DNA from: Liolophura sinensis
Taxonomy: Eukaryota; Mollusca; Polyplacophora; Chitonida; Chitonidae
Assembly (NCBI RefSeq): GCF_032854445.1
Contig: NC_088305.1
Location: 27,058,628 to 27,122,627 of the forward strand
Length of the DNA stretch: 64,000 nt
Direction: 5' to 3'
In this document: positions 87-60,654 of the stretch, piece after piece
Numbering within the stretch: position 1 is the first letter of the stretch
Layout: the number at the start of each line of letters is the position of its first letter
Program-made: the position numbers and the translations under genes
Notes under the pieces: generated by a model
Database searches by the model: none
Told to the model about the DNA's origin: nothing
The model's input: the letters and a program-made list of their open reading frames with translations, nothing else

Positions 87-3000
87 GTGGGTGTTGTTAA
101 GCAATGTTCACTCTCCTGTTGTACACTGCCCTCTTTGTGTCCAGTTTTGCTGTCTGTCTTTGTCTTTTCACTGTCCAGGTTACTTCAGTTTTTCAGATTG
201 ACTTCGAGGTGAGTTGGTGTCGTTAAGCAATGTTCACTCTCCTGTTGTACACTGCCCTCTTGCGTGTCCAGTTTTGCTGTCTGTCTTTGTCTTTTCACGG
301 TCCAGATTACTTCAGTTTTTCAGATTGACCTCGAGGTGAGTGGGTGTCGTTAAGCAATGTTCACTCTCCCGCTGTACACTGCCCTCTTTGTGTCCAGTGT
401 TGCTGTCTGTCTTTGTCTTTTCACGGTCCAGGTTACTTCAGTTTTTCAGATTGACCTCGAGGTGAGTGGGTGTCGTTAAGCAATTTTCACTCTCCCGTTG
501 TACACTGCCCGTTTTGTGTCCAGTTTTGCTGTCTGTCTTTGTCTCTTCACTGTCCAGGTTACTTCAGTTTTTCAGATTGATCTCGAGGTGGGTGGGTGTC
601 GTTAAGCAATTTTCACTCTCCCATTGTACACTGCCCGTTTTGTGTCCAGTTTTGCTGTCTGTCTTTGTCTTTTCACTGTCCAGGTTACTTCAGTTTTTCA
701 GATTGACTTCGAGGTGAGTGGGTGTCGTTAAGCAATGTTCACTCTCCCGTTGTACACTGCCCTCTTTGTGTCCAGTTTTGCTGTCTGTCTTTGTGTTTTC
801 ACGGTCCAGATTACTTCAGTTTTTCAGATTGATCTCGAGGTGAGTGGGTGTCGTTAAGCAATTTTTACTCTCCCATTGTACACTGCCCGTTTTGTGTCCA
901 GTTTTCCTGTCTGTCTTTGTCTTTTCACTGTCCAGGTTACTTCAGTTTTTTAGATTGACTTCAACACTGCTCACAGTGCAGGTTTTAATGACTGCACTTT
1001 TCCTACACTTTCGTATTCCTCACATGACGTTTTTTTATTGGTGGCGCACTTTAAGTTTTCTGATTTTATTTCAGCCCTGGACAGTGAATTTCTTCATTCA
1101 CTTTTCTCACTGGTTGTGGGACCTTGGTAATGAATACATGTAAGTGGTGGATGGCACACGTGTGTCCATTTACTCTGCCTAATGTTCATTGAAGATCACT
1201 TGTCTTCCACCAGTATTCTATGAGAAAGGTTGTAAAAATCAAACTTCCCAAAGGTTGTTGGATTACACCAGGCACTCTGATTTCTTCCACCTACTGACCA
1301 CCAGGTGGATTACACCGGACACTCTGATTTTCTCCACCCACTGGCCACCAGGTGGATTACACCGCGCACTCTGATTTTCTCCACCCACTGGCCACCAGGT
1401 GGATTACACCGCACACTCTGATTATCTCCACCCATTGACCACAAGGAGGATTACACCAGAGACTCTGATTTCCTCCACCCACTGACCACCAGGAGGATTA
1501 CACCTCACACTCTGATTTCCTCCACCCACTGACCACCAGGAGGATTACTTTGGACAGTCTGATTTCCTCCACCCACTGACCACCAGGAGGAATACACCTC
1601 ACACTCTGATTTTCTCCACCCATTGACCACCAGGAGGAATACACCGGACACTCTGATTTCCTCCTCCCACTGACCACCAGGAGGAATACACCGGACACTC
1701 TGATTTCCTCCACCCACTGACCACCAGGAGGAATACACTGGACAGGCTGACAACATATAAATGCTGATACAAATGAATACCCGCTCTGTTTGTCTACCCA
1801 TTTTGCACAGCAGCCTACATGGTGCGTTTTATGTATATAACAGATCTGTTTAAAGCAAACAATCTTCTACAAGTTTCAAGCAATACTGCGTATTGTAGCC
1901 AAGGTTATAGAACAGTGCAGCTAGGGAAATATCAGTTTCAGAGGTTGGGATTAATTTATTTGATTATTTATTTGCATGTTGTGAATGCCATATATGTACT
2001 CAGGAATTTTTCAGCTATACAAGTACAATTCTGGTGGTCAGTGGGTGGAGGAAATCAGAGTGTCCAGTGTAATCCTCCTGATGGTCAGAGCATGGAGGAA
2101 ATCAGAGCGTCCGGTGTAATCCTCCTGATGGTCAGTGGGTGGAGGAAATCAGAGTGTCTGGTGTAATCCTCCTGGTGGTCAATGGGTGGAGGAAATCAGA
2201 CTGTCCAAAGTAATCCTCCTGGTGGTCAGTGGGTGGAGGAAATCCGTGTGTCCAGTGTAATCCTCCTGATGGTCAGTGGGTGGAGGAAATCAGAGTGTCC
2301 AAAGTAATCCTCCTGGTGGTCAGTGGGTGGAGGAAATAAGTGTGTCCAGTGTAATCCTCCTGATGGTCAGTAGGTGGAGGAAATCAGACTGTCCAAAGTA
2401 ATCCTCCTGGTGGTCAATGGGTGGAGGAAATCAGACTGTCCAAAGTAATCCTCCTGGTGGTCAGTGGGTGGAGGAAATCAGTGTGTCCAGTGTAATCCTC
2501 CTGATGGTCAGTGGGTGGAGGAAATCAGAGTGTCCAAAGTAATCCTCCTGGTGGTCAGTGGGTGGAGGAAATCGGACTGTCCAAAGTAATCCTCCTGGTG
2601 GTCAGTGGGTGGAGGAAATCAGAGTGTCCAGTGTATTCCTCCTGGTGGTGAGTGGGTGGAGGAAATCAGAGTGCCTGGTGTAATCCTCCTGGTGGTCAGT
2701 GGGTGGAGGAAATCAGAGTCTCTGGTGTAATCCTCCTGGTGGTCAGTGGGTGGAGGAAATCAGACTGTCCAAAGTAATCCTCCTGGTGGTCAGTGGGTGG
2801 AGGAAATCAGAGTGTCCAGTGTATTCCTCCTGGTGGTCAGTGGGTGGAGGGAAATCAGAGTGTCCAGTGTATTCCTCCTGGTGGTCAGTGGGAGGAGGAA
2901 ATCAGAGTCTCCGGTGTAATCCTCCTGTTGGTGAATGGGTGGAGAAAATCAGAGTGTGCGGTGTATTCCTCCTGGTGGTCAGTGGGTGGAGGAAATCACA

Positions 3001-6000
3001 CTGTCCAAAATAATCCTCCTGGTGGTCAGTGGGTGGAGGAAATCAGATAAAATGTATACACATGCGTAAAAATTAATGTCTACATTGTATTTGTTTTACA
3101 GCCTACCTGAAAACCGGGATGTTCTCTTACGTGTCCGGGGTAAAGTATGTCCATTACGTGAATGTAACTTTACGCCATGAAATTTAAACACAAGTTACCA
3201 AAAAAACGAAGAACAAAAATCAACCAATGACATATATTGCTGAATAGATACATGTATTTACACCAATTATTCACTGGCATGTAATCAATTAGTCATCTGA
3301 TTAGTGGCCAATTTTTTTTTTTTTTTTTTGTGGGAGGGGCAGCATTCTCGTATGCCAACTGCATCATTACATGAAAAATTAGAATAAGTGATAACTGTTT
3401 GTATGTTCAAGTGGTTAAGGTGCTTGTCTTTCATGCGCTGGGAGGGGCAGAGCTGATTTAAGCGTCTTATCCATGCAATCATGCAGTCATGCAGTCAGTA
3501 ATCAGCTGTTCCGGTTGTGGCCTGAAGTCAGGAGGTGTGTCAGGTACTTGGAAATAATCTGGCGCTTTGTTTACCTTTACCCATAAACCTGCTCCATTTC
3601 ATATAACTGAAAAATTATTGATCACAACATTAAACACCAATCAATCTGTCAATCAATTCATCCACTATAGTGTAGGAAATACGAGGTCGTATTTCATTCC
3701 CGGTCATGGATGGGGAAATCTCCCAGAATCCATCACCGCTTCATTGCTGCCCTGTCATGAGGGGTATTGAAAGTGTGTGTCAGTTACTTGCCAAAGGTTG
3801 GTGGTTTTAATAATACTCCAGTTTTTCCACCTACTTGTGTAAAATGAACTGTCATCATGGAAGTGTAATATTTTTGAGTACCACATTAATCGACAATGAA
3901 ACAAGTGAATAGAAAAGTCTACCCTATAAGTGATAACACTGCTTTGGTGGTCTATGGTTAGAGCGTCCACCTCAAAGTCAGGACTCCCCTCAAACTCGGT
4001 CAGGTCATAACAAATACTTTAGAAATGGTACTTGCTGCTGCCTTGCTTGGTGCTCAGCACTGAGAGTTTAGCGCAAGGAAACAGGACTGGTTGGCCTGGT
4101 GTCAGTAGTGGTATAATACTTCAGCATGGCCCTACCACAAGAAAACACAGTACATGTATATGAACTTGTACTCACACCTAATGACTTCTCATCATAATAT
4201 GACTGGAAAATTGCTATTAAGTACGACGTTAAATCCAAAGCATACATACACATATATAATCATACGGTTGTTCTTGCGTTTAGAAAGCAGCGAGGCGTCT
4301 AGTGAGTGAGGGGCAGAGTTTGGGCGTGTCATCACTGAGGTTCCTGCCCAAGAACGCCTCCTTAAGACTGATCGTCAACATGGGCAGGAGTACAGGCCTC
4401 TCACTCAACAAATCACAAAAGGTACTTGTACATGTGACTACAGGTGAAAGATTTTTGGCTTCCTGGTAGACCAAAGATGGAAGTTTCTGTAGGTGTTTAT
4501 TTGGGTGTCTGTTTGTCGGCAGCTTTACAGAAAACTTTATTCTTGGATGTGGATGAAATTTCTTGTTCTAATCTATTAAATGTTGATGGTGGTCTGAGGA
4601 CAGAAAGTTTTTATTTATTTATTTGATTGGTGTATTTCACTTATATTTCACTTATACGACAGCGGCCAGCATTATGGTGGGAGGAAACCGGGGAAAGGTC
4701 AGGGGAAACCCACGACTATCCATAGGTTGCTGGCAGGCCTTCCCACTTACGGCCAGAGAGGAAGCCAGCCTGAGCTGGACTTAAACTCACAGAAACCGCA
4801 TTGGTGAAAGGCTTCTGGGCTAGAGCGCTAACCAACTGAGCCAAGGAGGCCCCCAGAAAGTTTTTGTGCTCTCCTAGTTCCGATTAGCTCTACTTATTTC
4901 TTCATTTGAATGGTGTTTCACAACATACTCATACATGTATGCAAGTGGTTGGAGGGAAACCAGCATGGTAGACTGGTAAAACCTGGAGGAAACCACTGCC
5001 CCATGGCCAGGTATCTGTCAAAGCTACTGATGTGAAACTGATTTATTGACAGTTTGTTCTCTGTTAGAACTAAAATGATGTCTCGTGCTGTAAAGTGAGG
5101 GCTTGTTATGATTAATTATTATTGAAAAAAAAAAAAAAATGAAAAAAAGACACTGAGTGAATGCCAAACATTTGATTACTTGCATGTACATCTTCGTTTT
5201 CCATTAATCAGCAGATGACTTTGTCTGGCTAATTAACATCACTGTACATTTTACCAATTTTTGCCATTTTGTTTGGTTTCTAGGATCTGTCAGTCAATGC
5301 ACAGCTGGCTGATGTATTTCAAGTTTTGAAGTTCGAAAAGGTGGGATTTTTTTGTCCAGGTTCTGTACCGCATTCAAAATTTGTCATAGCTCATCTAAAG
5401 AGGATGGATGGGTGGGGAATAATAAAAAAGCAGTTTGACAAATAGTTTGTCGCTGAAACTTGTAAAAACATCTAATTGTAAAAGTTTTTTTTTATGTGAC
5501 ACAACTGTTGTCATTACTCTTAATAATTAGAGACCACCAGAGGGTGCTCACTGCCTGATGTGGCTAAAGCCTTGTTCCTGCAGCAGCTCATCAGTTCCCT
5601 GAGCCAGTGAGGTTTATACAGAATCCATTGTTCGGTTGTTCAAAACTGGTTCAAGACTGAATAACAGATTTAACTTGAAGCCAAGTCTTCAGTATTACAC
5701 AACAGGACAAGAAATGCCCTGTAGAACTTTCTCTCAAACTTCCTAGCTGTGTTTTTTCTTTTAAACTTTGAAAGTAAAATATGAAGTCTGAAATTCTAAG
5801 CATGGAAGCCAATAAATATTTTTGCTGACACTACTATTTTTATCCCACCCTACTACATTTACTTATTTTGTTACATATTTATTCACTGAATTCTGTATAT
5901 TAAAGTACAGGCAGAAATTTGAATTCTGTTGTTTTCTCTTCAGTTGCGAAAGCCGTCCATCGTGGGTATGTCTGTGTTTGGTGTGGATGATATTTATGCA

Positions 6001-21592: not shown

Positions 21593-21724
21593 ATGGAGCG
21601 TTGGGCGGGAAGAGTGGCATTAGTTACTGGTGCATCGGCGGGTATAGGAGCTGCTCTGACTCGTAAACTAGTGAAAGATGGCATGAAGGTAGCAGTATGC
21701 GCCCGGAGACTGGACCGTCTTGAG
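21593..21724 (+). CDS. DHRS11: DHRS11-like exon 1
   Basis: 44 codons from the ATG through RRLDRLE, with the TGxxxGxG dinucleotide-binding loop at residues 12-19. The reading frame upstream is closed by TGA at 21587-21589, which fixes the start. An earlier ATG at 21562 is in another frame. Donor GTATAA. Confidence 0.93.
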
Positions 21725-24700: not shown

Positions 24701-27700
24701 CGCAGTGTTCTGGCGCTGGGACGAACCGCTATTAGCATATCCTTTTATGATTGATTGTCAATCAAGAACATGCATTTGACCAATCATAAGCAGTATTGTT
24801 GCAAATAGGTCAACCAGATGTCCAACACATTGGTTTCAATCGATCTGTGACGTCATGACGTCACAATTGCTTTCACTGGGAATGGGATGAAAAGTAACAT
24901 CACGAGAAGAGGTGATGGGACTTCGGATGTACTGGATCCGTCCATAAGGTGTTTCCACAGAGAGTCACCATAGGCTCCATGATTCCTAATTTAAATCGCA
25001 CAACTCATTGGCCAGATCTAGTGTACACCGATAGTTTACCCGGTATCCTATGAAATGAAAGGTCTATATTCTCTGTTGTCATTTTTTCTGTTCTCTCTTT
25101 TCACATCATGTTGAAACAATTTTACTTTATTACTTTTTCCCTACAAATCCAAATCTACCTGTTGTTTGAGTGTATGCACTTCAATGTTAATGTACCACAA
25201 AAACGTCTTGTCAAGACAGCCCCGCTGTGTCCACCAACAGATCGTCATAAATGAATGCAGAGAAATAGGGGCTACCAAGTTGGTTATCGTTATAAAGTCT
25301 TGAGCCAAATCTATCCCCGGACTGAACACTAATCTTTCTCTCACGAGGCTAACCCTCTAACATCGAATTTCGAAAGCCATTTTGTAGCAAGCTTAGATTG
25401 TCTAAATGTGAACATTGAAATTGAACCCCTACATCCGTTTGCAGGCGCTACGTGATGAACTGAAGGGCGAGCCAGGGGCTGTTCTACCGATACAGTGTGA
25501 CTTGCGCAAAGAGGACGAGATTCTCGCCATGTTCGAGAAGATCAAAGTGACGTGGGGTGGAGTGGATGTTTGCGTCAACAACGCGGGGATGAACCGGAAC
25601 GCTCCGTTATTGTCTGGGAGCACAGATGACTGGAGACATATCATCGATGTAAGGAACTCCAGCTAAATTCACGGTCCCCACTTCAAACCTTGAAGAACTC
25701 ATGAAAAATGTCTCTAAATTTCTATGCATGGAATATCCTTTTTGTACCAAAATTACCTGTATTGTTTGTAGATTTTCCATCATCAGTTTTCCGAAATAAC
25801 GTCAATTTTGAACTTACGCCAGACAGCAGAAAAAATTAGCACTCTCATTTTTACTCTTTCCTCTCACAAAGTTGTTTTACAGCTGTTTTACGTCACCATT
25901 GACGCCTCGACTGCAGACTGCTTAATTTTTTCGGGCAGGAGTTTAGACTGTAGTTTAAAACCATTTCTATCCCCAATAGCATGAATGCGGATTGTTTGTG
26001 CTCTTATACGTTATGTCACATCCTTATCTGCAAATTAAGGTACAAACATTATTTTTGAAAAAACTGTGCTATCTGACCCTAATCATAAATACATATTTAT
26101 CTCTTGCTGGCACGAGGGGGAGCGGAAAAAACAGCTTTCAGACATCCGTCACACAGTTTCCAGATTTTTTCATGGCACTGCATTGAATTTTCCACATGGC
26201 GTGAGAATAACAATTTATAGATCCAGTTTCAGTTTTTAGAATTAAGGATCGTCTATTTTCCGCACTATTATGACCGTTTTTGCTTTGCTGGCCTGTTTTG
26301 AGGCTATGGCAATGTTCTGGGTATTGTTTTGAAAAATCAGCCATCTTCTTGGATTTGAAGTTTGGCGCATGGCTTCACCATGGCAAGGCACATATCAAGT
26401 TGAAGTTTCGGGTCATTTCATCCATTTCCAGCAACATTGCAGAATCATCGTATTTAACATCTTATAATTGGTAAGGGACATGAATGATAAATTGTTTGAA
26501 GTGAGATACGTCACAGGGAGTGACGTAGGTCAAATTTAAAACAAACGACAAATCTAGACCAAATTTAACTAAAAGTTTAATAGGCATAAGGTTTTATTTT
26601 TGTGATGTCGCATAATCGAGATGTCGCAGTTCAAAGAATGCAAAATTGCGCACATTGAGAAATTGTCGCCATGTTATCAATTTTGACCAATCAAGCGCGA
26701 GTTATGTTTTTAACTTTAGAACGCACCTGTTTCTGCTGACGTAACGCGAATGCTGCTTTGCCTTGTCGTGACATCGTATTTACGCTTTTTCTGACATGGG
26801 TCAGCCGATGATTCTGTAAGATTTCCTAATTAATGTTCATAAGAAGAGTTACCAAGCACGTGAGAAGAAAATGGCTGTCTCCGACCGTACGTAGGAAGAT
26901 CTGGCAGGAACCTGCGGATGGCCGTGGGTTTCCCCCGGGCTGTGTGCCCGGTTTCCTCCCACCATAATGCTGGCCGCCGTCGCATAAGTGAAATATTCCT
27001 GCGTACGGCGTAAAACACCAATCAAATAAATAATTAAACAAGACGGCTGTGACTGTTTAGGTCTGTTTTCATCTCTCTTCCTAAATCATTCAGGTTATAA
27101 CATTTGTTGTCTTTTCTCTTAAAGTGCTGCCGTAATCACGCCACACAGGCACCACCTTCAATGACAGACAAACGGCGTGGGGATATGTGTATCATTTACG
27201 ATGAATTTGTACTTCAGGTGAATGTCCTAGCCCTTTGTATATGTACACGAGAGGCAGTTAAGTCCATGCAAGAACGAGGCGTAGATGACGGCCACATCAT
27301 TAATATCAATAGGTAATGTTTCTTTGTATCTTGGAAATTGGTGGTGGTAGGGAGAGGGTTGTTTTGTGTGTGTGTGGGGGGGGGGTCTTTTTGTTTTGTG
27401 TTCTTTTTTTTTGGGGGGGGGGGTGAGATTTTACCCGGTGAAGTGTTGCAAGTTAACTCGTCAAGTTAAAAAGTGAAAAACTAAATAAAACTTAATTCCT
27501 ATACACTTATTAATAGATCTCTGTTGGAATTTACACAGAAAGCTGGTATCCTGAAAAACGAATAAGTCAACAGTTTTCAGGGATTTCTTTAATAGATTTG
27601 GTATCGCGATATTCCATTGGCATAACAGATTTCTGAATGTCCAAGTTTCTATTTGAGAATCATGGAAATAAGTGAACGTTGTCATGGTGTTCAAATTAAG

Positions 27701-30700
27701 TGTAAGACTTAACAGTAATACTTAACATTCTCTCTACATTTCCTAATAAGAGTGTTACACCGTCATCGGCAAGAAAGTCAGCACAACTGCGCAGTTGTGG
27801 CTCTTGTCCTTGAATTTTGAAAGGGTTTGCTTTAGACGTAGGCTGAACACGAAATTTTGGAGATTCTTCCTGTCCTATGAACCGTAGTGACATTGACCGG
27901 ACGACGACAGCACTGGTGTATAAAAGAGTAAAATTTATAACTTGTCAAGAACAACGTCCAAATGTAATTAAGGACATACACCATAGAGATTAAAATCGGA
28001 GCACCTACGTCAGTGTGTGATAGTTGGCAAATGGTTAAACGTAACCGGTGAAATACGACCTCATGTCAATTTACCTCGTTTGGGGTTTTATTCAAACTAA
28101 TCATGTAATTGCCTAAATAGCAGCAAATTACACGCCGCTGGCACCATGGTGGCTAAAATGATACATCAAAAGATAACATGAAACGAAGAGTATGGTTTTA
28201 AGAAAATGAAGAAGGAGAAGTCAATGAAAATTTCATTTGTGAGGCATGTTTTATATTTCCTAATAACCTCTCTGTTTTACGTCATTGATCGGAAATATTC
28301 GGAAAGGACGTCATCCATGAATATACTGGGAACGCGGGACCATCTTAGCGCACACAACTTGGGCTCTCTAGCCCACAAAGTTGTTTTGACAGCTACTACC
28401 ATTGACGTCACTACATCAGATTACTCAATATCTGAACTAATCGGTATACTTCACATGTTATGCGTGTAGTTTAGTCATTTTTACGTCTCAAGAAGAAAGC
28501 TGAAAAGCTCTTTTGTAATTCTGTATGTTACTTCACATCATACACTCCTTATTAAGAAATGAAGCCAAGCTTTTCATACATTCTTTAAAAAGGATTAGAT
28601 TTAAAAAAGGCAGTGATGTTGAATGCAATATGTTAAATGATACTGGTGGATGATTACATGTATGACAGTTCATGTGGTCTGACATGAAGGTGGATGGAGA
28701 TTATTTGGGTTGGCATCCATTGGCCTTCACAGTGTCAGTTATTCTCATTTGCTCGTTATAGTGGGACCCTTGGCTGATTGGAACACTACAACTTCTTCGA
28801 TTCAGTTATAGGTTCATCTTAAAGGAAAAGACCCCAAAAATCGAAGTGGGCATCACTAAACAGACCACTTCAAACTATGCATAAATATACTTTCATTTTT
28901 TCGTTTATTTTTTAGATTTTTGTGAAAAGAGTTAAAGGCGTTGAAACATTTGGATTCTATGGTGGGCTTTATTGACCATACTATCGGAGTTTAGGAATTC
29001 TGACGTCACATGAAGTTTTTCAAACTCTAATCAAGACACTGAATGTTTGAATAACTCTTTTTACTCATGAGTAAAACATTACCAAAATAATTTTCCAAAA
29101 AATTCCTTCCTTCTGGCGAACATCAGGAAAAAAAGGTGTGACGTCAAGATTCCGTCAATATTGCTAGTACTGAAATATTTGAATGCCTTTCAACACTCTT
29201 TAAAAAATCTGAGAAACATAAATGAAAGTTGAAAAATAAGTTGTCTATTTGATGAGCCTTACTTCATATTTAACTTTCTTTTACTTTAACGACGTCCTGC
29301 ATTGAAATCGTTATGCGGATATCTGCAGTCACAAGTTGTTCCTAAGAATCAGTATACCGACAACATTCCGTCCTCTTCTTCAAGAATATGTTTTTGCGTT
29401 CGTCATTCGAGCTTTTCCTCCATCTCTTCCAAGCTTTCTGAAACCAGGTTTCTTCCGGAAGACTTTCTGCCAATTCCAAATGTTGCAAATCAAGTCGGCC
29501 TAAAATGCTTATAAAAATATAATCTTTGAAAGTTATAAGCTACATGTAGAAGAAAAATGAAATAGATCTCAGATCAGTGCGAATAAAAACAGTTCAACAA
29601 GCGCATAAATATTGGTTCTCGGTTTCATCCACAGCACTCTTGGCCATAAGGTTGGCAACTTCCCAGCATTTCATTTCCTGATGGGGTCAAAGTTCAGCGT
29701 GACGGCCTTGACCCAAGGAACCCGCAATGAACTCAAGGGATTGAAGTCTCATATCCGAGCAAGCGTAAGTCACTATATAACCATATTCACAAGAAATACT
29801 CTCCACATTATCGTAAAAGCGAATGACGTTCGATAGATCATTTCTGTGCAATCGAATATCATCATATACCCTTGCTCTCAAGTCGTTTAACGTAAGTAGT
29901 TCAAGATTTCGCGTCACACGTTTATGACTACAGGTTGCTTGTAAATGACGCTGGTAAAAAAAACTGAAACGGGAATCATTTATCCTGTACTCTTAACTCA
30001 ATATATCTGCTTATACAGGTTTTGTTGTCAAAGGCACCGCGTTCCATGAAGACTGGGGTTCTCCTACTCTGTGTATAGGGAAGCAAATCTTGCCGCTCAT
30101 TAATAAGCAGTGGCATCTACCTGCTTAAATAACAGTGCCAAAGTTCAGCGTGACGGCCTTGGCCCAAGGAACCCTCAATGAACTCAAGGGGTTGAGGGCG
30201 GTGGAGAGAGGGGCATAGTGCTTAACGTGATACGCGGCGTTCAAAGGCCCAAAAGCATCTCACTAATGCGGTCGTTGTGAGTTCCAGTCGTACGTGATGC
30301 ACATGGAAAGATTCGGAGCAACCTTCGGATGGTCGTGGGTTTCGCCCTTGCTCTGCCCGGTTTCCTCCCACCATAATACTGACCGCCGTCGTATGACTGA
30401 CATATTCTTGAGTGTGGAGCAAAACACCAATCAAATAAATACAATGAAAGTGTAATGCTGTGAATCTTTGTAGTTAATCTGTCGTTCAGTTGAATGTTCG
30501 TTCTTGCTCTATGTGACACTCTCTCCCTTAGTCTATAAGCCCGGGCAGTGTGATAACGGGATCACTGGCCTTTGTTCTTACTCTATGTCAGACTCTCTGC
30601 CTCAGTCTATCAGCCCGGGCATTGTGATAAATGAAGCATTGGGCTTCGTTCTTGCTCTATGTGACACTCTCTCCCTTAATCTATAAGCCCGGGCAGTGTG

Positions 30701-33700
30701 ATAACGGAATCACTGGCCTTTGTTCTTCCTCTATATCAGATTCTCTCCCTCAGTCCATCAGCCCGGGCATTGTGATCAATGAAGCATTGGGCTTCGTTCT
30801 TGCTCTATGCGACACTCTCTCCCTTAGTCTATAAGCCCGGGCAGTGTGATAACGGAATCACTGGCCTTTGTTCTTACTCTTTGTCAGACTCTCTCCCTCA
30901 GTCCATCAGGCCTGGCGTTGTGATAAATGAAGCATTGGGCTTCGTTCTTGCTCTATATGACACTCTCTCCCTTAGTCTATAAACCCGGGCAGTGTGATAA
31001 CGGGATCACTGGCCTTTATACTTACTCTTTGTCAGACTCTCTCCCTCAGTCCATCAGCCCGAGCATTGTGATAACTAAAGCATTGGGCTTCGTTCTTGCT
31101 CTATACGACACTCTCTCCCTTAGTCTATAAGCCCGGGCAGTGTGATAACGGAATCACTGGCCTTTGTTCTTACTCTTTGTCAGACTCTCTCCCTCAGTCC
31201 ATCAGGCCGGGCGTTGTGATAAATGAAGCATTGGGCTTCGTTCTTGGTCTATATGACACTCTCTCCCTTAGTCTATAAACCCGGGCAGTGTGATAACGGG
31301 ATCACTGGCCTTTATTCTTACTCTTTGTCAGACTCTCTCCCTCAGTCCATCAGCCCGAGCATTGTGATAACTAAAGCATTGGTCTTCGTTCTTTCTCTAT
31401 GTGACACTCTCTCCCTTAGTCTGTCATCCGGGGCAATGTGATAACGGATTTGTTTGCTTTCGTTCTTACTCTTATGTCACACTCTGTCCCTCAGTCCATC
31501 AGCCCGAGCATTGTGATAAATGAAGCATTGGGCTTCGTTCTTGCTCTATGTGACACTCTCTCCCTTAGTCTATAAGCCCGGGCATTGTGATAACAGGATC
31601 ACTGGCCTTTGTTCTTACTCTATATCAGACTCTCTCCCTCAGTCCATCAGGCCGGGCGTTGTGATAAATGAAGCATTGGGCTTCGTTTTTGCTCTATGTG
31701 ACACTCTCTCCCTTAGTCTATAAACCCGGGCAGTGTGATAACGGGATCACTGGCCTTTGTTCTTACTCTATATCAGACTCTCTCCCTCAGTCCATCAGGC
31801 CGGGCGTTGTGATAAATGAAGCATTGGGCTTCGTTCTTGCTCTATGTGACACTCTCTCCCTTAGTCTATAAGCCCGGGCAGTGTGATAACGGAATCACTG
31901 GCCTTTGTTCTTACTTAATGTCAGACTCTCTCCCTCAGTCCATCAGCCCGAGCATTGTGATAACTAAAGCATTGGGCTTCGTTCTTGCTCTATGTGACAC
32001 TCTCTCCCTTAGTGTATAAGCCCGGGCAGTGTGATAACGGGATCGCTGGCCTTCTATGCCAGACTCTCTCCCTCAGTCCTTCAGCCCGAGCATTGTGATA
32101 ACTAAATCATTGGGCTTCGTTCTTGCTCTGTGTGACACTCTCTCCTTCAGTTTATCATGCGGGGCAATGTGATAACGGAATCACTGGCCTTTGTTCTTAC
32201 TCTTTGTCAGACTCTCTCCCTCAGTCCATCAGCCCGAGCATTGTGATAACTAAAGCATTGGACTTCGTTCTTGCTCTATGTGACACTCTCTCCCTTAGTC
32301 TATAAGCCTAAGTGTGATAACGGGATCACTGGCCTTTGCTCTTACTCTATGTCAGACTCTCTCCCTTAGTCTATAAGCCCGGGCATTGTGATAAATGAAG
32401 CATTGGGCTTCGTTCCTGGTCTGTGTGACACTCTCTCCCTTAGTCTATAAGCCCGGGCAGTGTTATAACGGGATCACTGGCCTTTGTTCTTACTCTATGT
32501 CCGACTCTCTCCCTCAGTCCATCAGCCCGAGCATTGTGATAAGTGAAGCATTGGTCTTCGTTCTTTCTCTATGTGACACTCTCTCCCTTAGTCTGTCATC
32601 CGGGGCAATGTGATAACGGATTTGTTTGCTTTCGTTCTTACTCTTATGTCACACTCTGTCCCTCAGTCCATCAGCCCGAGCATTGTGATAAATGAAGCAT
32701 TGGGCTTCGTTCTTGGTCTATATGACACTCTCTCCCTTAGTCTATAAACCCGGGCAGTGTGATAACGGGATCACTGGCCTTTATTCTTACTCTTTGTCAG
32801 ACTCTCTCCCTCAGTCCATCAGCCCGAGCATTGTGATAACTAAAGCATTGGGCTTCGTTCTTGCTCTATGTGACACTCTCTCCCTTAGTCTATAAGCCTA
32901 AGTGTGATAACGGGATCACTGGCCTTTGCTCTTACTCTATGTCAGACTCTCTCCCTTAATCTATAAGCCCGGGCATTGTGATAAATGAAGCATTGGGCTT
33001 CGTTCCTGGTCTGTGTGACACTCTCTCCCTTAGTCTATAAGCCCGGGCAGTGTTATAACGGGATCACAGGCCTTTGTTTTTACTTTATGTCCGACTCTCT
33101 CCCTCAGTCCATCAGCCCGAGCATTGTGATAAATGAAGCATTGGTCTTCGTTCTTTCTCTATGTGACACTCTCTCCCTTAGTCTGTCATCCGGGGCAATG
33201 TGATAACGGATTTGTTTGCTTTCGTTCTTACTCTTATGTCACACTCTGTCCCTCAGTCCTTCAGCCCGAGAATTGTGATAAATGAAGCATTGGGCTTCGT
33301 TCTTGCTCTATGTGACACTCTCTCCCTTAGTCTATAAGCCCGGGCATTGTGATAACAGGATCACTGGCCTTTGTTCTTACTCTATATCAGACTCTCTCCC
33401 TCAGTCCATCAGCCCGGGCGTTGTGATAAATGAAGCATTGGGCTTCGTTCTTGCTCTATGTGACACTCTCTCCCTTAGTCTATAAACCCGGGCAGTGTGA
33501 TAACGGGATCACTGGCCTTTGTTCTTACTCTATATCAGACTCTCTCCCTCAGTCCATCAGGCCGGGCGTTGTGATAAATGAAGCATTGGGCTTCGTTTTT
33601 GCTCTATGTGACACTCTCTCCCTTAGTCTATAAACCCGGGCAGTGTGATAACGGGATCACTGGCCTTTGTTCTTACTCTATATCAGACTCTCTCCCTCAG

Positions 33701-36700
33701 TCCATCAGGCCGGGCGTTGTGATAAATGAAGCATTGGGCTTCGTTCTTGCTCTATGTGACACTCTCTCCCTTAGTCTATAAACCCGGGCAGTGTGATAAC
33801 GGAATCACTGGCCTTTGTTCTTACTTAATGTCAGACTCTCTCCCTCAGTCCATCAGCCCGAGCATTGTGATAACTAAAGCATTGGGCTTCGTTCTTGCTC
33901 TATGTGACACTCTCTCCCTTAGTCTATAAACCCGGGCAGTGTGATAACGGGATCGCTGGCCTTCTATGCCAGACTCTCTCCCTCAGTCCTTCAGCCCGAG
34001 CATTGTGATAAATGAATCATTGGGCTTCGTTCTTGCTCTGTGTGACACTCTCTCCTTCAGTTTATCATGCGGGGCAATGTGATAACGGAATCACTGGCCT
34101 TTGTTCTTACTCTTATGTCATACTCTCTCCCTCAGTCCATCAGCCCGGGCATTGTGAAAACGGAAGCATTGGCCTTGTCTTTCCCGGATCAGCCAGAGCT
34201 CGTGAAGCACATCCATTATTCCACCAAGGTGAGAACATGTTCTGCCGGTAAGCTAAAGGGTTGCTTGTTAGGTAAACTGGGTAGAGCTGAGGAATCTTTT
34301 TAGTTATAGCTCAGTACAGACACAGCCAGTAAGCTAAATGGTTGATTCATGGGTAGACTGATGCAACTGAAGGATCTTCTTTAGCTAAAGCTCAGTACAG
34401 ACATAGCCAGTGAGCTAAATGGTTGCGTGATAGTTAGACTGATGCGACTGAAGAGTCATTTGAGATAAAGCTCATTACAGACTCAGCGGGTAAGCTAAAT
34501 GGCTTACTAGGTACTTCTGCTTGACGACGTGTAGTCTCACGAAGGGGCAGTTCTGCACAGAAAGTGAATTGGCTGGGAGTTTCTTTTCAGCCAATCAAGA
34601 CGTCATGTCGCTGTGTTCTTCTGTTCACGATTTCTCCCACATGTATATGCCGGGGAATGTATACCTAGTAACTAGCATTTTTAACGTGCTATTTGAAGAT
34701 AGTATCTGGACTTACGTGAAGGAAATATCAGGTTCTAACAGAACTAACGTAAGTGTTATGGTGACTATCTATTGATACTGGTATGGTTTGTGGGTTGCAG
34801 CGCATCGGTTGATCTTCATTTCATGTTCTGGTTCCATGGAGCCTTCACTCTCTTTCATTCCATAGAAGCGGTAATACTAAGATCGTGTAATTTAACACTG
34901 GCCACACTAAGGCTTCTCATAGGTATATTACAAAGTTCGATGAATCCATAACGGATCGAAATTTACATGTGAAAAGCGCGAAAAGGCTTCATTGATTACT
35001 GTACATGTATATTATATCCGAATGGTCGCAAGGCCATTTGAATGAGAATTATGTGTTGCCAAGGAAACGTTCAGTTTTTCGATCAGTTATTGTTATTTTC
35101 CAGCGTATGGAAGCTGATGACGTTGCGGATGCCGTAATCTATGCCCTGTCAGCACCCCCGCATGTACAGGTAGGTGTATGTCAGTCCCGCAGTGTTCCGA
35201 CCTCATTGTCAAGTCGTAATTTTTTTATAAATATACCCACAAGTACCCGGATGATGAACATGTACTTCGAGTGGTCGTATAATGCCATAGCCCGTGCAGC
35301 GAACTTAGTCATTTGTTGTAGTATTCATAGCATAGTCGTGTCCTTCGAATATCTCGCGAGATTTGACTACGTCGAGAACTTATTTACCGCCCATGCATAC
35401 CGCACTCGTTAAATCTCTGCCTCCGCTTGATATGATTAGGTTTTCGATCTTCTGTGATCTTCTGGGATGTTTTGATCATGTTTAGCAATCTTTCTTGGTC
35501 AGAAACTCTTACACGTTCCTAGTAGCAACAGTTCATTTCCACTGCCATGGGTTGCTTGGCTGCTAGGGGGCGTTTACTGAGATATTTGCTGATTTTATAC
35601 CTCGGTTTGATAGGCTACAGATCATTTGAAGGAGTGACTCCAAATTCTGCCAGTTTCCAAATGTTTAGGTGTTCAAAATGTAATGTAAATGTAATGTCAT
35701 TATTAATTGATTACACAAAGCCCACCTGATATATATTTAAATGCATTTTGACTGTGAAGAAAGTTTGCCATTGAAAACTAAACATTTTATTATTTCCGTT
35801 CAAAGGACAAATATATAATACCTGTACTGATACTTCTAGGTAAAAACTGACAACCGGCAGATGACCGTTATTAAAGATAAAATCTCCTGTACATCGCGAA
35901 CTGACCTGTCACACATTTCCTAGTCGTTGCTTTGTCACGAGCAGAAACATCATTGTAATAAATCCAGTGCCTATTATGTATATATTTCATTGGAGCTAAA
36001 TTGAGTGCTGAGCTTTAACCGAAACGAGTGTGGTCTCTTCAATGAATAAGGCATGTGCTTGGAATAAAGCAGCCCTCCCGGCCTTTTCGCCTGAATTCAA
36101 GCCACATCTGGCCTTGCGACAGATGGATTCGAACCTCAGACCTCATTAAAATCCTTTGTGTCCGCATTGAATTCAGAATCATAGATCCGCTGTCGCAAAT
36201 GAAAGCTACATGATAAGTTTCATTATATCACAAGTTTTCTATGATACGTGCACAAACAGCGTATTACCACGCGTTTTCTGATGTCACATATCAAAGCAAA
36301 GTGTGTTTAATAATGAAAATTCAAAACCGTGTATATAGATGCTCTATACAAACTTTCGTTATGATGTTTTTCAAAATTAATGTCGGGGATTTGGTGTTAT
36401 GTCTTCAAAGGCGGATCTCTGATTGCCTTATGAAATGGGAAATGAAGGTAATATTTAGTCCCTTTAGGGAAGACATCCGTGTTTACAAGGTTCGGGAGTT
36501 TTTACGTAACAGATCGTTTCATCATTGAATAGCACGTCAGACAAGAGTTAATGAATTTCTGATCAAAGATTGACATAAATCCCAAGTGGCATTTCATAAA
36601 CAGAACTCATTTGCAGCGCCGCTATCGTCACCGCTGTGATTCAGTGGAAAGTAGGAGAATACTGTTGTTGTTGTTGTTAAATCAGAATTAAAGTTCAGAG

Positions 36701-55631: not shown

Positions 55632-58600
55632 ATTTGCCAGGTATCACTGCTCTGATTTTACTATATTTTAAGACTTATTGTATTTACCATTACAGCGTGA
55701 TCGCTGTTCTGGTTTTACTCTCTGTGCCGTAGGTTTCTAATTATAATGCATTTACCATTACACTGTCATCGCTGCTCTGGTTTTACTCTCTGTGCTGTAA
55801 GTCTTTAATTATATTGCATTTACCATTACATTGTCATCGCTGCTCTGGTTTTACTGTCTGTGCTGTAAGTCTTTAATTATATTGCATTTACCATTACACA
55901 GTCATCGCTGCTCTGGTTTTACTCTCTATGTTGTACGTCTTTAATTATGATACATTTACCATCACACTGTCATCGCTGCTCTGGTTTTACTCTCTGTGCC
56001 GTAGGTTTCTAATTATAATGCATTTACCACTACACTGTCATCGCTGCTCTGGTTTTACTCTCCACGCTGTACGTCTTTAATCATGATGCATTTATCACCA
56101 CACTGTCATCGCTGCTCTGGTTTTACTGTCTGTGCTGTAAGTCTTTAATTATATTGCATTTACCATTACACTGTCATCGCTGCTCTGGTTTTACTCTCTA
56201 TGTTGTACGTCTTTAATTATGATACATTTACCATCACACTGTCATCGCTGCTCTGGTTTTACTCTCCACGCTGTACGTCTTTAATCATGATGCATTTACC
56301 ACTACACTGTCATCGCTGCTCTGGTTTTACTCTCCACGCTGTACGCCTTTAATCATGATGCATTTATCACCACATTGTCATGGCTGCTCTGGTTTTACTG
56401 TCTGTGCTGTAAGTCTTTAATTATATTGCATTTACCATTACACTGTCATCGCTGCTCTGGTTTTACTCTCTATGTTGTACGTCTTTAATTATGATACATT
56501 TACCATCACACTGTCATCGCTGCTCTGGTTTTACTCTCCACGCTGTACGTCTTTAATCATGATGCATTTACCACTACACTGTCATCGCTGCTCTGGTTTT
56601 ACTCTCCACGCTGTACGCCTTTAATCATGATGCATTTATCACCACATTGTCATGGCTGCTCTGGTTTTACTGTCTGTGCTGTAAGTCTTTAATTATATTG
56701 CATTTACCATTACACTGTCATCGCTGCTCTGGTTTTATTCTCTATGCTGTAAGTCTTTAATTATGATACAATTACCATCACACTGTCATCGCTGCTCTGG
56801 TTTTACTCTCCACGCTGTACGTCTTTAATCATGATGCATTTACCACTACACTGTCATCGCTGCTCTGGTTTTACTCTCTATGTTGTACGTCTTTAATTAT
56901 GAAACATTTACCATCACACTGTCATCGCTGCTCTGGTTTTACTCTCCACGCTGTACGTCTTTAATTATGATACATTTACCACTACAGTGTCATCGCTGCT
57001 CTGGTTTTACTCTCTATGTTGTACGTCTTTAATTATGATACATTTACCACTACACTGTCATCGCTGCTCTGGTTTTACTCTCCAAGCTGTATGTCTTTAA
57101 TCATGATGCATTTATCACCACATTGTCATGGCTGCTCTGGTTTTACTGTCTGTGCTGTAAGTCTTTAATTATATTGCATTTACCATTACACTGTCATCGC
57201 TGCTCTGGTTTTATTCTCTTTGCTGTAAGTCTTTAATTATGATACATTTACCATCACACTGTCATCGCTGCTCTGGTTTTACTCTCCACGCTGTACGTCT
57301 TTAATCATGATGCATTTACCACTACACTGTCATCGCTGCTCTGGTTTTACTCTCTATGTTGTACGTCTTTAATTATGAAACATTTACCATCACACTGTCA
57401 TCGCTGCTCTGGTTTTACTCTCCACGCTGTACGTCTTTAATTATGATACATTTACCACTACAGTGTCATCGCTACTCTGGTTTTACTCTCTATGTTGTAC
57501 GTCTTTAATTATGATACATTTACCATCACACTGTCATCGCTGCTCTGGTTTTACTCTCTATGTTGTACGTCTTTAATTATGAAACATTTACCATTACACA
57601 GTCATCTCTGCTCTGGTTTTACTCTCTATGTTGTACGTCTTTAATTATGATACATTTACCATCACACTGTCATCGCTGCTCTGGTTTTACTGTCTGTGCT
57701 GTAAGTCTTTAATTTTATTGCATTTACCATTACACAGTCATCACTGCTCTGGTTTTACTCTCTATGTTGTACGTCTTTAATTATGATACATTTACCATCA
57801 CACTGTCATCGCTGCTCTGGTTTTACTGTCTGTGCTGTAAGTCTTTAATTACATTGCATTTACCATTACACAGTCATCACTGCTATGGTTTTACTCTCTA
57901 TGTTGTACGTCTTTAATTATGATACATTTATCATCACACTGTCATCGCTGCTCTGGTTTTACTCTCTATGTTGTACGTCTTTAATTATGATACATTTACC
58001 ACTACAGTGTCATCGCTGCTCTGGTTTTACTCTCTATGTTGTACGTCTTTAATTATAATACATTTACCATCACACTGTCATCGCTGCTCTGGTTTTACTC
58101 TCTATGCTGTACGTCTTTAATTATGAAACATTTACCATCACACTGTCATCGCTGCTCTGGTTTTACTCTCTATGTTGTACGTCTTTAATTATGATACATT
58201 TATCATCACACTGTCATCGCTGCTCTGGTTTTACTCTCTATGTTGTACGTCTTTAATTATGATACATTTACCACTACAGTGTCATCGCTGCTCTGGTTTT
58301 ACTCTCTATGTTGTACGTCTTTAATTATGATACATTTACCACTACAGTGTCATCGCTGCTCTGGTTTTACTCTCTATGTTGTACGTCTTTAATTATGATA
58401 CATTTATCATCACACTGTCATCGCTGCTCTGGTTTTATTCTCTATGCTGTACGTCTTTAATTATGAAACATTTACCACTACAGTGTCATCGCTGCTCTGG
58501 TTTTACTCTCTATGTTGTACGTCTTTAATTATGAAACATTTACCACCACACTGTCATCACTGCTCTGGTTTTACTCTCTATGTTGTACGTCTTTAATTAT

Positions 58601-60320
58601 GATACATTTATCATCACACTGTCATCGCTGCTCTGGTTTTATTCTCTATGCTGTACGTCTTTAATTATGATACATTTACCATCACACTGTCATCGCTGCT
58701 CTGGTTTTACTCTCTATGTTGTACGTCTTTAATTATGATACATTTACCACTACAGTGTCATCGCTGCTCTGGTTTTACTCTCTATGTTGTACGTCTTTAA
58801 TTATGATACATTTACCATCACACTGTCATCACTGCTCTGGTTTTACTCTCTATGTTGTACGTCTTTAATTATGATACATTTATCATCACACTGTCATCGC
58901 TGCTCTGGTTTTATTCTCTATGCTGTACGTCTTTAATTATGAAACATTTACCACTACAGTGTCATCGCTGCTCTGGTTTTATTCTCTATGCTGTACGTCT
59001 TTAATTATGATACATTTATCATCACACTGTCATCGCTGCTCTGGTTTTACTCTCTATGTTGTACGTCTTTAATTATGATACATTTACCACTACAGTGTCA
59101 TCGCTGCTCTGGTTTTACTCTCTATGTTGTACGTCTTTAATTATGATACATTTACCATCACACTGTCATCGCTTCTCTGGTTTTACTGTCTCTGCTGTAA
59201 GTCTTTAATTATATTGCATTTACCATCACACTGTCATCGCTGTTCTGGTTTTACCCTCTCTGCTGTACGTCTTTATTTTTATCGCATTTACCATTACACT
59301 GTCATCGCTGCTCTGGTTTTACTGTCTGTGCTGTACGGCTTTGATTTTTGTGCATTTACCACTACAGTGTCATCGCTGCTCTGGTTTTACTCTCTCTGCT
59401 GTACGTCTTTATTTATGATGCATTTATCATCACATTGTCATAGCTGCTTTGGTTTTACTCTCTATGCTGTAAGTCTTTAATTATATTGCATTTACCATCA
59501 CACTGTCATCGCTGCTCTGGTTTTACTGTCTGTGCTGTACGTCTTTATTTTTATCGCATTTACCATCACACTGTCATCGCTGCTCTGGTTTTACTCTCTA
59601 TGTTGTACGTCTTTAATTTTATTGCATTTGCCATTACACTGTCATTTTTGCTCTGGTTTCACTCTCTATGTTGTACGTCTTTAATTATGATGCATTTATC
59701 ATCACATTGTCATCCCCGCTCTGGTTTTACTGTCTGTGTTGTAAGTCTTTAATTTTATTGCATTCGCCATTACACTGTCATTGTTGCTCTGGTTTTACTC
59801 TCTATGTTGTACGTCTTTAATTATGATGCATTTATCATCACATTGTCATCCCCGCTCTGGTTTTACTGTCTGTGTTGTAAGTCTTTAATTTTATTGCATT
59901 CGCCATTACACTGTCATCGCTGCTCTGGTTTTACTCTCTATGTTTTACGTCTTTAATTATGATGCATTTATCATCACACTGTCATCGCTGCTCTGGTTTT
60001 GCTGTCTGTGTTGTAAGTCTTTAATCATGATGCATTTACCACTACACTGTCATCGCTGCTCTGGTTTTACTCTCCACGCTGTACGCCTTTAATCATGATG
60101 CATTTATCATCACACTGTCATCGCTGCTCTGGTTTTACTGTCTGTGCTGTAAGTCTTTAATTTTATTGCATTGGCCATTACACTGTCATCGCTGCTCTGG
60201 TTTTATTCTCTATGCTGTAAGTCTTTAATTATATCGCATTTACCATTGCACTGTCATCGCTGCTCTGGTTTTACTCTCTACGCTGTAAGTCTTTAATTAT
60301 ATAACATTAACCATCACGAT
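55632..60320 (+). repeat. 68-bp minisatellite array (~69 copies)
   Basis: Unit core CACTGTCATCGCTGCTCTGG then TTTTACTCTCTATGTTGTAC and GTCTTTAATTATGATACATT. Spacing of 68 was checked across several copies. Variants (Tgttgtacg/Ctgtaagt/CcacgctgT) are grouped in local blocks, as expected from unequal exchange. Divergence is highest at both edges. 68 is not a multiple of 3, so ORFs inside (up to 118 codons) are not genes. Confidence 0.96.
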
Positions 60321-60654
60321 GTCATCGCTCCCCTCGTTTTTAAAGTTAGTTTACCAAATGTCTTTCGCACAGTTTCTTTTGTCTTCTAACTGATATTATT
60401 TACAATAAAAAGAGCCTGAATCGGTGTCGTCTACTAGATATGCTAAGCCATGAATTACGTATATCTTTTGATATGTTGACAAAGACCATTTTCTGATAAG
60501 AGGCGACCTTATTTAGTTAAACCAGTCGAGGACCACACGAATTTAGCTAGCCACGTTTCTGTTCTAGCATTAGGCTCACAATGAAATGAAAAGATGCACT
60601 CAACATATCTGATCGATTGAAACTTACTGTGGTTTTGACACCACTAAGAAGACA

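Follow-up and report, generated by a model that had tools for sequence, protein, structure and literature searches.

A mirage-type minisatellite, probably silent, at the intron 4/exon 5 border of a DHRS11-like gene in the chiton Liolophura sinensis

Organization of the DHRS11-like locus

The window analysed here is a 64,000-nt stretch of the Liolophura sinensis genome (NC_088305.1, positions 27,058,628-27,122,627, forward strand), the species bearing this name, and not L. japonica, by correction (PMC12441733). Coordinates given without a locus handle are positions in this window. The window carries a DHRS11-like gene of the short-chain dehydrogenase/reductase (SDR) family, whose fourth intron ends in a large minisatellite built from the gene's own splice border. 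On the evidence of its sequence, this array is probably a minisatellite of the mirage type, as known from amphioxus, that was amplified from the intron 4/exon 5 border and is mostly silent, being spliced out together with intron 4.

Six exons of the host gene were delineated, all on the + strand. Exon 1 (21593-21724) has an ATG start, an open frame and the donor GTATAA, and is recovered as a tblastn match. Exon 2 (25445-25648), exon 3 (27218-27312), exon 4 (29635-29764) and exon 6 (35104-35169) continue the open joined frame, and the true exon 5 (34136-34228) begins with about 44 bases that constitute the exonic half of the array unit. Joined, the six exons yield 240 open codons with GT/AG borders, intron 4 being in phase 0. 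The peptide of exons 5 and 6 matches 1xg5_A (ARPG836) with an E value of 1.8e-6, an entry that we take to be human DHRS11. This homology and the open six-exon frame bear out the identity proposed in the initial annotation, which had been made from the sequence alone. A search for the last exon found nothing.

The SDR catalytic tyrosine belongs to a YxxxK motif. At its position in exon 4, the window gene has leucine (HFLMGSKFSV), whereas the paralogs L005 (C10) and L006 (C7) read HFYSATK. The window gene is DHRS11-like by descent and its enzyme activity is doubtful; it may be catalytically altered or inactive, its frame being open.

Structure of the border array

The minisatellite extends from 30497 to 34135 on the + strand and consists of 49 copies of the intron 4/exon 5 border, each of about 74 bp and arranged as an A/B dimer of 148 bp, as delimited by Tandem Repeats Finder (TRF) and by cutting at the acceptors. 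TRF reports a period of 74 with 50.0 copies at 30497-34176, a span that takes in the true border; read as the 148-bp dimer, the same array comprises 25.0 copies with 88% matches. Cutting at the acceptors resolves 50 borders, namely 49 upstream copies and the true border at 34135/34136, and the 49 spacings between them measure 74 bp in 41 cases, 75 bp in four, 71 bp in two and 64 bp in two. Each unit, cut in this way, joins about 30 bases of intron to about 44 of exon. The AG is retained in 47 of the 49 upstream copies and is replaced by TAA in units 3 and 34. The array continues directly into the true exon 5, and its repetition is far above chance. The initial annotation had described about 49 tandem 74-bp units ahead of exon 5, each joining the end of intron 4 to the exon start, nearly all keeping the AG, with the last running into the true exon. 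This anatomy is confirmed, and exon 5 itself is real by its open frame, its GT/AG borders and its match to 1xg5.

Genome-wide, the 148-bp dimer has at least 25 matches, all of them within the DHRS11-like array; a second locus was not found among the genome matches listed (632 contigs, 609,464,459 bases).

Origin and amplification of the array

Translated, the unit's exonic half gives ISPG(I/V)V, a conserved segment of SDR proteins; in the C10 paralog L005, this border is likewise in phase 0 but has no array. Because exon 5 is homologous to 1xg5 and the C10 border is array-free, we regard the exon as the source and the array as derived. The C7 paralog L006 says nothing on the origin of the array, since its exon 5 was searched for and not located. 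The earlier proposal of a minisatellite grown from a live 3' splice border is thus supported by the conserved SDR half, by the array-free C10 border and by the run of the array into exon 5.

All 49 copies carry GT(G/T)AT(A/C)A where the true exon has GTGAAAA. A derived pattern shared by every copy fits a single founder and not a series of copies taken from the exon. Mean identity between units alternates with lag, at about 0.75 for odd and 0.89-0.93 for even lags, while the true border matches the 49 units at identities of 0.74-0.87. Runs of at least four units at an identity of at least 0.96 occur at lags 2, 4, 8, 24 and 26, which points to block duplication. We infer that a tandem duplication across the intron 4/exon 5 border was amplified to 49 copies, in which 74-bp units would have come first, the 148-bp A/B dimer next, and block duplications or unequal exchange last.

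Predicted consequences for splicing

All splice-site scores given here come from approximate matrices and hold only as such. A scoring of all acceptors, proposed in the initial annotation, places all 49 copies below the true site, which is the top of the 50 at 7.4; the 47 that retain AG lie between 3.7 and 6.6. Within the array, none of the 222 GT dinucleotides reaches a donor score of 5 by the approximate matrix, compared with about four per kb in the window from 35200 to 64000. An array with acceptors but no good donor would be removed with intron 4 and stay mostly silent in the mRNA. Exon definition is established in splicing, and it would favour the true acceptor, which as the last acceptor of the array lies nearest to the exon 5 donor. 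Given the lack of a good 5' splice site in the array and the top score of the true acceptor, we expect the array to be mostly silent.

Several points weigh against this reading. The copies with AG also have a pyrimidine tract similar to the one at the true site, and the tract and AG columns have accumulated fewer inferred changes (0.69 per column) than the preceding intron part (2.36), the exon part (1.23) or the unit overall (1.32), so that some acceptor use could have left its mark. This low rate of change has a p of 0.011 by column shuffling, yet ranks only sixth among the 74 contiguous windows. Exons starting at units 49, 48 and 47 would measure 168, 242 and 306 nt, within normal exon size. 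The matrices behind the argument for silence are approximate, and the lack of donors counts as a single observation and not as 222, because the array is one repeated motif. Length variation, moreover, is a trait of mirages, and the chiton array is known from one assembly.

Were exon 4 spliced to the copies, 48 of the 49 would lead to a stop after 17-51 residues, most often after 31 (20 units) or 26 (19 units). The exception is unit 49, which lies 75 bp upstream of exon 5 and in frame with it, and which would add 25 residues without a stop. The initial annotation had expected about 25 residues and then a stop for any unit; the stop holds for 48 units, over a wider range of lengths, and fails for unit 49. 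These stops, the retention of AG and the mild conservation of the acceptor columns would suit a field of decoy acceptors, in which some transcripts splice into the units and end in stops, decay or a truncated SDR, so that array length tunes the output. We consider such a role unlikely. The true site is the best of the 50, good donors are absent from the array by the approximate matrices, and distant units would require exons of up to 3.7 kb. Reverse transcription PCR in amphioxus suggests that splicing is undisturbed by mirages, according to the account in PMC3087553. Border arrays furthermore occur on unrelated genes, and array coverage near exon hits is not raised, as described below.

A second alternative, and a rather improbable one, is that part of the mRNA starts exon 5 at unit 49, with the 25 residues inserted before the ISPG motif. 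The position in frame and free of stops, the acceptor score of 6.1 against 7.4 for the true site, and the resulting exon of 168 nt all speak for this start, whereas the insertion would adjoin a conserved SDR segment. Loss of enzyme function is no usable argument against it, because the gene already has leucine at the catalytic tyrosine position.

Border arrays in the chiton genome

The C10 paralog L005, on the minus strand, carries an array of the donor type. TRF places a 34-bp unit in 36.9 copies at L005 4015-5244, and the donor of exon 2 lies at 5272, so that the array begins 28 bases past it. The stretch from the true donor onwards (GAG/GTAACC...) matches the unit at 28 of 34 bases, on which ground we read the donor as the diverged first unit; donor and array together contain AGGTAA 16 times. 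The exon 2 donor thus seems to be where this array arose.

In a neighbouring gene, an exon with a match to telomerase reverse transcriptase (TERT; E 7.5e-4) and with a Telomerase_RBD domain upstream of it (L008, E 1.9e-12) is followed from the first base after its inferred donor by a 126-bp array of 6.9 copies (87-959, + strand, TRF). GAGGTGAGT is found in five copies and GAGGTGGGT in two, and the unit has little exon sequence. As the donor is repeated while little of the exon is included, this TERT array adjoins the border but does not span it. It is followed by a pair of 47-bp arrays, oppositely oriented (1260-1744 and 2031-3047).

For a survey of unrelated genes, we went down the lists of 99 p450 and 138 kinase matches and took from each the first 40 exon hits of up to 330 bp. 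Arrays span four of the 160 hit ends of these 80 exon hits (95% interval 0.7-6.3%), where hit ends are domain ends and not mapped borders, and some hits contain stops. Two of the four lie on acceptors. L074 has an 80-bp unit in at least 5.6 copies, reaching the edge of the piece, with the splice signal at six places including the true site, and L072 has a 37-bp unit in 8.8 copies with the signal at nine places, ACAG being retained in eight upstream copies and at the true site. The other two lie on donors and have the signal at six places each, including the true site: L084 (67 bp, at least 6.5 copies, reaching the edge of the piece), where one place is without GT, and L093 (65 bp, 5.3 copies). 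Arrays in L037, L038, L102 and L105 are near but not over the hit end and stand outside the count. In L055, a 31-bp array of 3.2 copies (691-791) lies over the end of a p450 frame and repeats the region of the stop codon; it was left out as a splice-border array, as it covers the stop codon.

These recurrent arrays can be set against the general abundance of minisatellites, defined as arrays with a period of at least 20 and at least three copies. In the window they cover 18.9%, against 7.1% in a random sample of 100 kb drawn from six contigs as 20 pieces of 5 kb. At a cut-off of 2.5 copies, coverage upstream of the exon hits rises from 2.9% in the first 50 bp to 9.5-10.9% at 200-400 bp; downstream, it goes from 4.6% to 6.2-7.3%. 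Splice borders therefore look not preferred but mildly avoided, with the first bin being partly exon. With about 7% of the genome sample in minisatellites and no raised coverage near exons, chance seeding suffices to account for border arrays. A genome-wide pattern search returned 626 matches to a tandem donor motif and 468 to the reversed motif; counted by eye as arrays, among the matches listed on C1 up to 72.1 Mb, these correspond to about 16 and 15. Donor motifs thus show no clear enrichment in tandem arrays.

Active targeting, in which R-loops or pyrimidine tracts, for instance, would make splice borders prone to duplication, might be read from the recurrence of border arrays in the survey, the SDR paralog and TERT, and from the 1.3-fold excess of the donor motif over its reverse. 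We nevertheless judge it very unlikely. Coverage next to the exon hits is below that at 200-400 bp and does not exceed that of the random sample (where the cut-off is 3 copies and not 2.5), and the motif excess levels out when arrays are counted.

On a broader view, which we offer as speculation with little expectation that it holds, a few percent of all splice borders in this chiton would carry mirage arrays and would together make up a large pool of spare splice sites, variable in length, by which isoforms and exon ends are altered and new introns seeded, with unit 49 of the DHRS11-like gene as one working example.

Relation to mirages and other border duplications

Mirages, a name taken from earlier work on Adh3, are tandem copies of intron-exon borders found on the 3' and 5' sides in the amphioxus globin genes BflGb6 and BflGb9 (PMC3087553). 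As that source describes them, AG or GT is present in many but not all units, their length is unstable, with six and three copies in the two BflGb6 haplotypes, and splicing is normal as far as reverse transcription PCR suggests (PMC3087553). PGBD5 is a further case, and Adh and troponin C are cited as others (PMC3902484); these accounts describe mirages from amphioxus and consider them possibly general in cephalochordates (PMC3087553, PMC3902484).

The chiton array resembles the amphioxus mirages in that its units span the true border, splice signals persist in many of them (AG in 47 of 49), and its evolution is block-wise, with homogenisation that leaves out the border unit. It differs in its mollusc host, its 49 copies compared with the six and three of BflGb6, and its dimer structure. 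The initial annotation had considered the structure unusual, a judgement that does not stand, because amphioxus mirages are of the same kind and more cases exist in the chiton genome. Two further systems share single features with it. In the potato RNA-dependent RNA polymerase gene RdRp, an intron was gained when a segment containing an intron-exon border was duplicated in tandem (PMC4974935); there too the acceptor and its tract are copied, but one duplication yields a new intron, whereas the chiton array holds many copies. The intronic minisatellite CeRep25B of C. elegans is linked to multiple alternative splicing (PMC4039745) and likewise lies near splicing decisions; its abstract mentions no border copies, in contrast to the chiton unit, which is the gene's own border and has all its matches at one locus.

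As far as our literature search reaches, no report of border-spanning arrays in molluscs was found. What is new, as far as these searches show, is the mollusc host and the signs of generality within one genome. Most likely, judging from sequence features, the locus holds a large, silent molluscan mirage in a genome with recurrent border arrays. That mirages are present in a mollusc, on several genes and at both kinds of splice site, suggests that no special mechanism is needed for them where a genome is rich in minisatellites. Such arrays provide a test bed for how the spliceosome ignores dozens of near-identical acceptors, and for how often duplicated borders become new introns or exon extensions. 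They also call for caution in annotation, as border arrays invite false exon starts.

The published chiton assembly comprises 632 scaffolds and 609,495,693 bases (PMC11068029). An assembly artefact, with a wrong copy number or order or a collapse or expansion of reads, is most improbable: long tandem arrays are prone to errors and the assembly has only 14x read coverage, but the HiFi reads average 8,347 bp and thus exceed the array in length (both values as given in PMC11068029), the units differ among themselves, and border arrays occur at other loci as well.

Other repeats in the window and in paralogs

Upstream of the array, intron 4 also contains a degenerate partial copy of exon 4 (30139-30195, + strand; 95% over 57 bp) and, at 30310-30440 on the + strand (limits approximate, by eye), a copy of a dispersed element resembling a short interspersed nuclear element, whose 27-base core is present 18 times in the window when up to six mismatches are allowed. 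A second array (34244-34502, + strand, 81 bp in 3.2 copies by TRF) begins 15 bp into intron 5 and does not span the donor.

The C7 paralog L006 carries a 23-bp array at 4-189. L007 is a DHRS11-like fragment with in-frame stops; the surrounding stretch is 65% minisatellite and includes 22-bp units that contain GGTGAGA. Towards the end of the window, arrays of 68, 80 and 106 bp lie at 48-63 kb, where a Pfam search in two of the three + frames found no family. The 68-bp array (55682-60340, 68.5 copies) extends over 4.7 kb and is pyrimidine-rich on the + strand.

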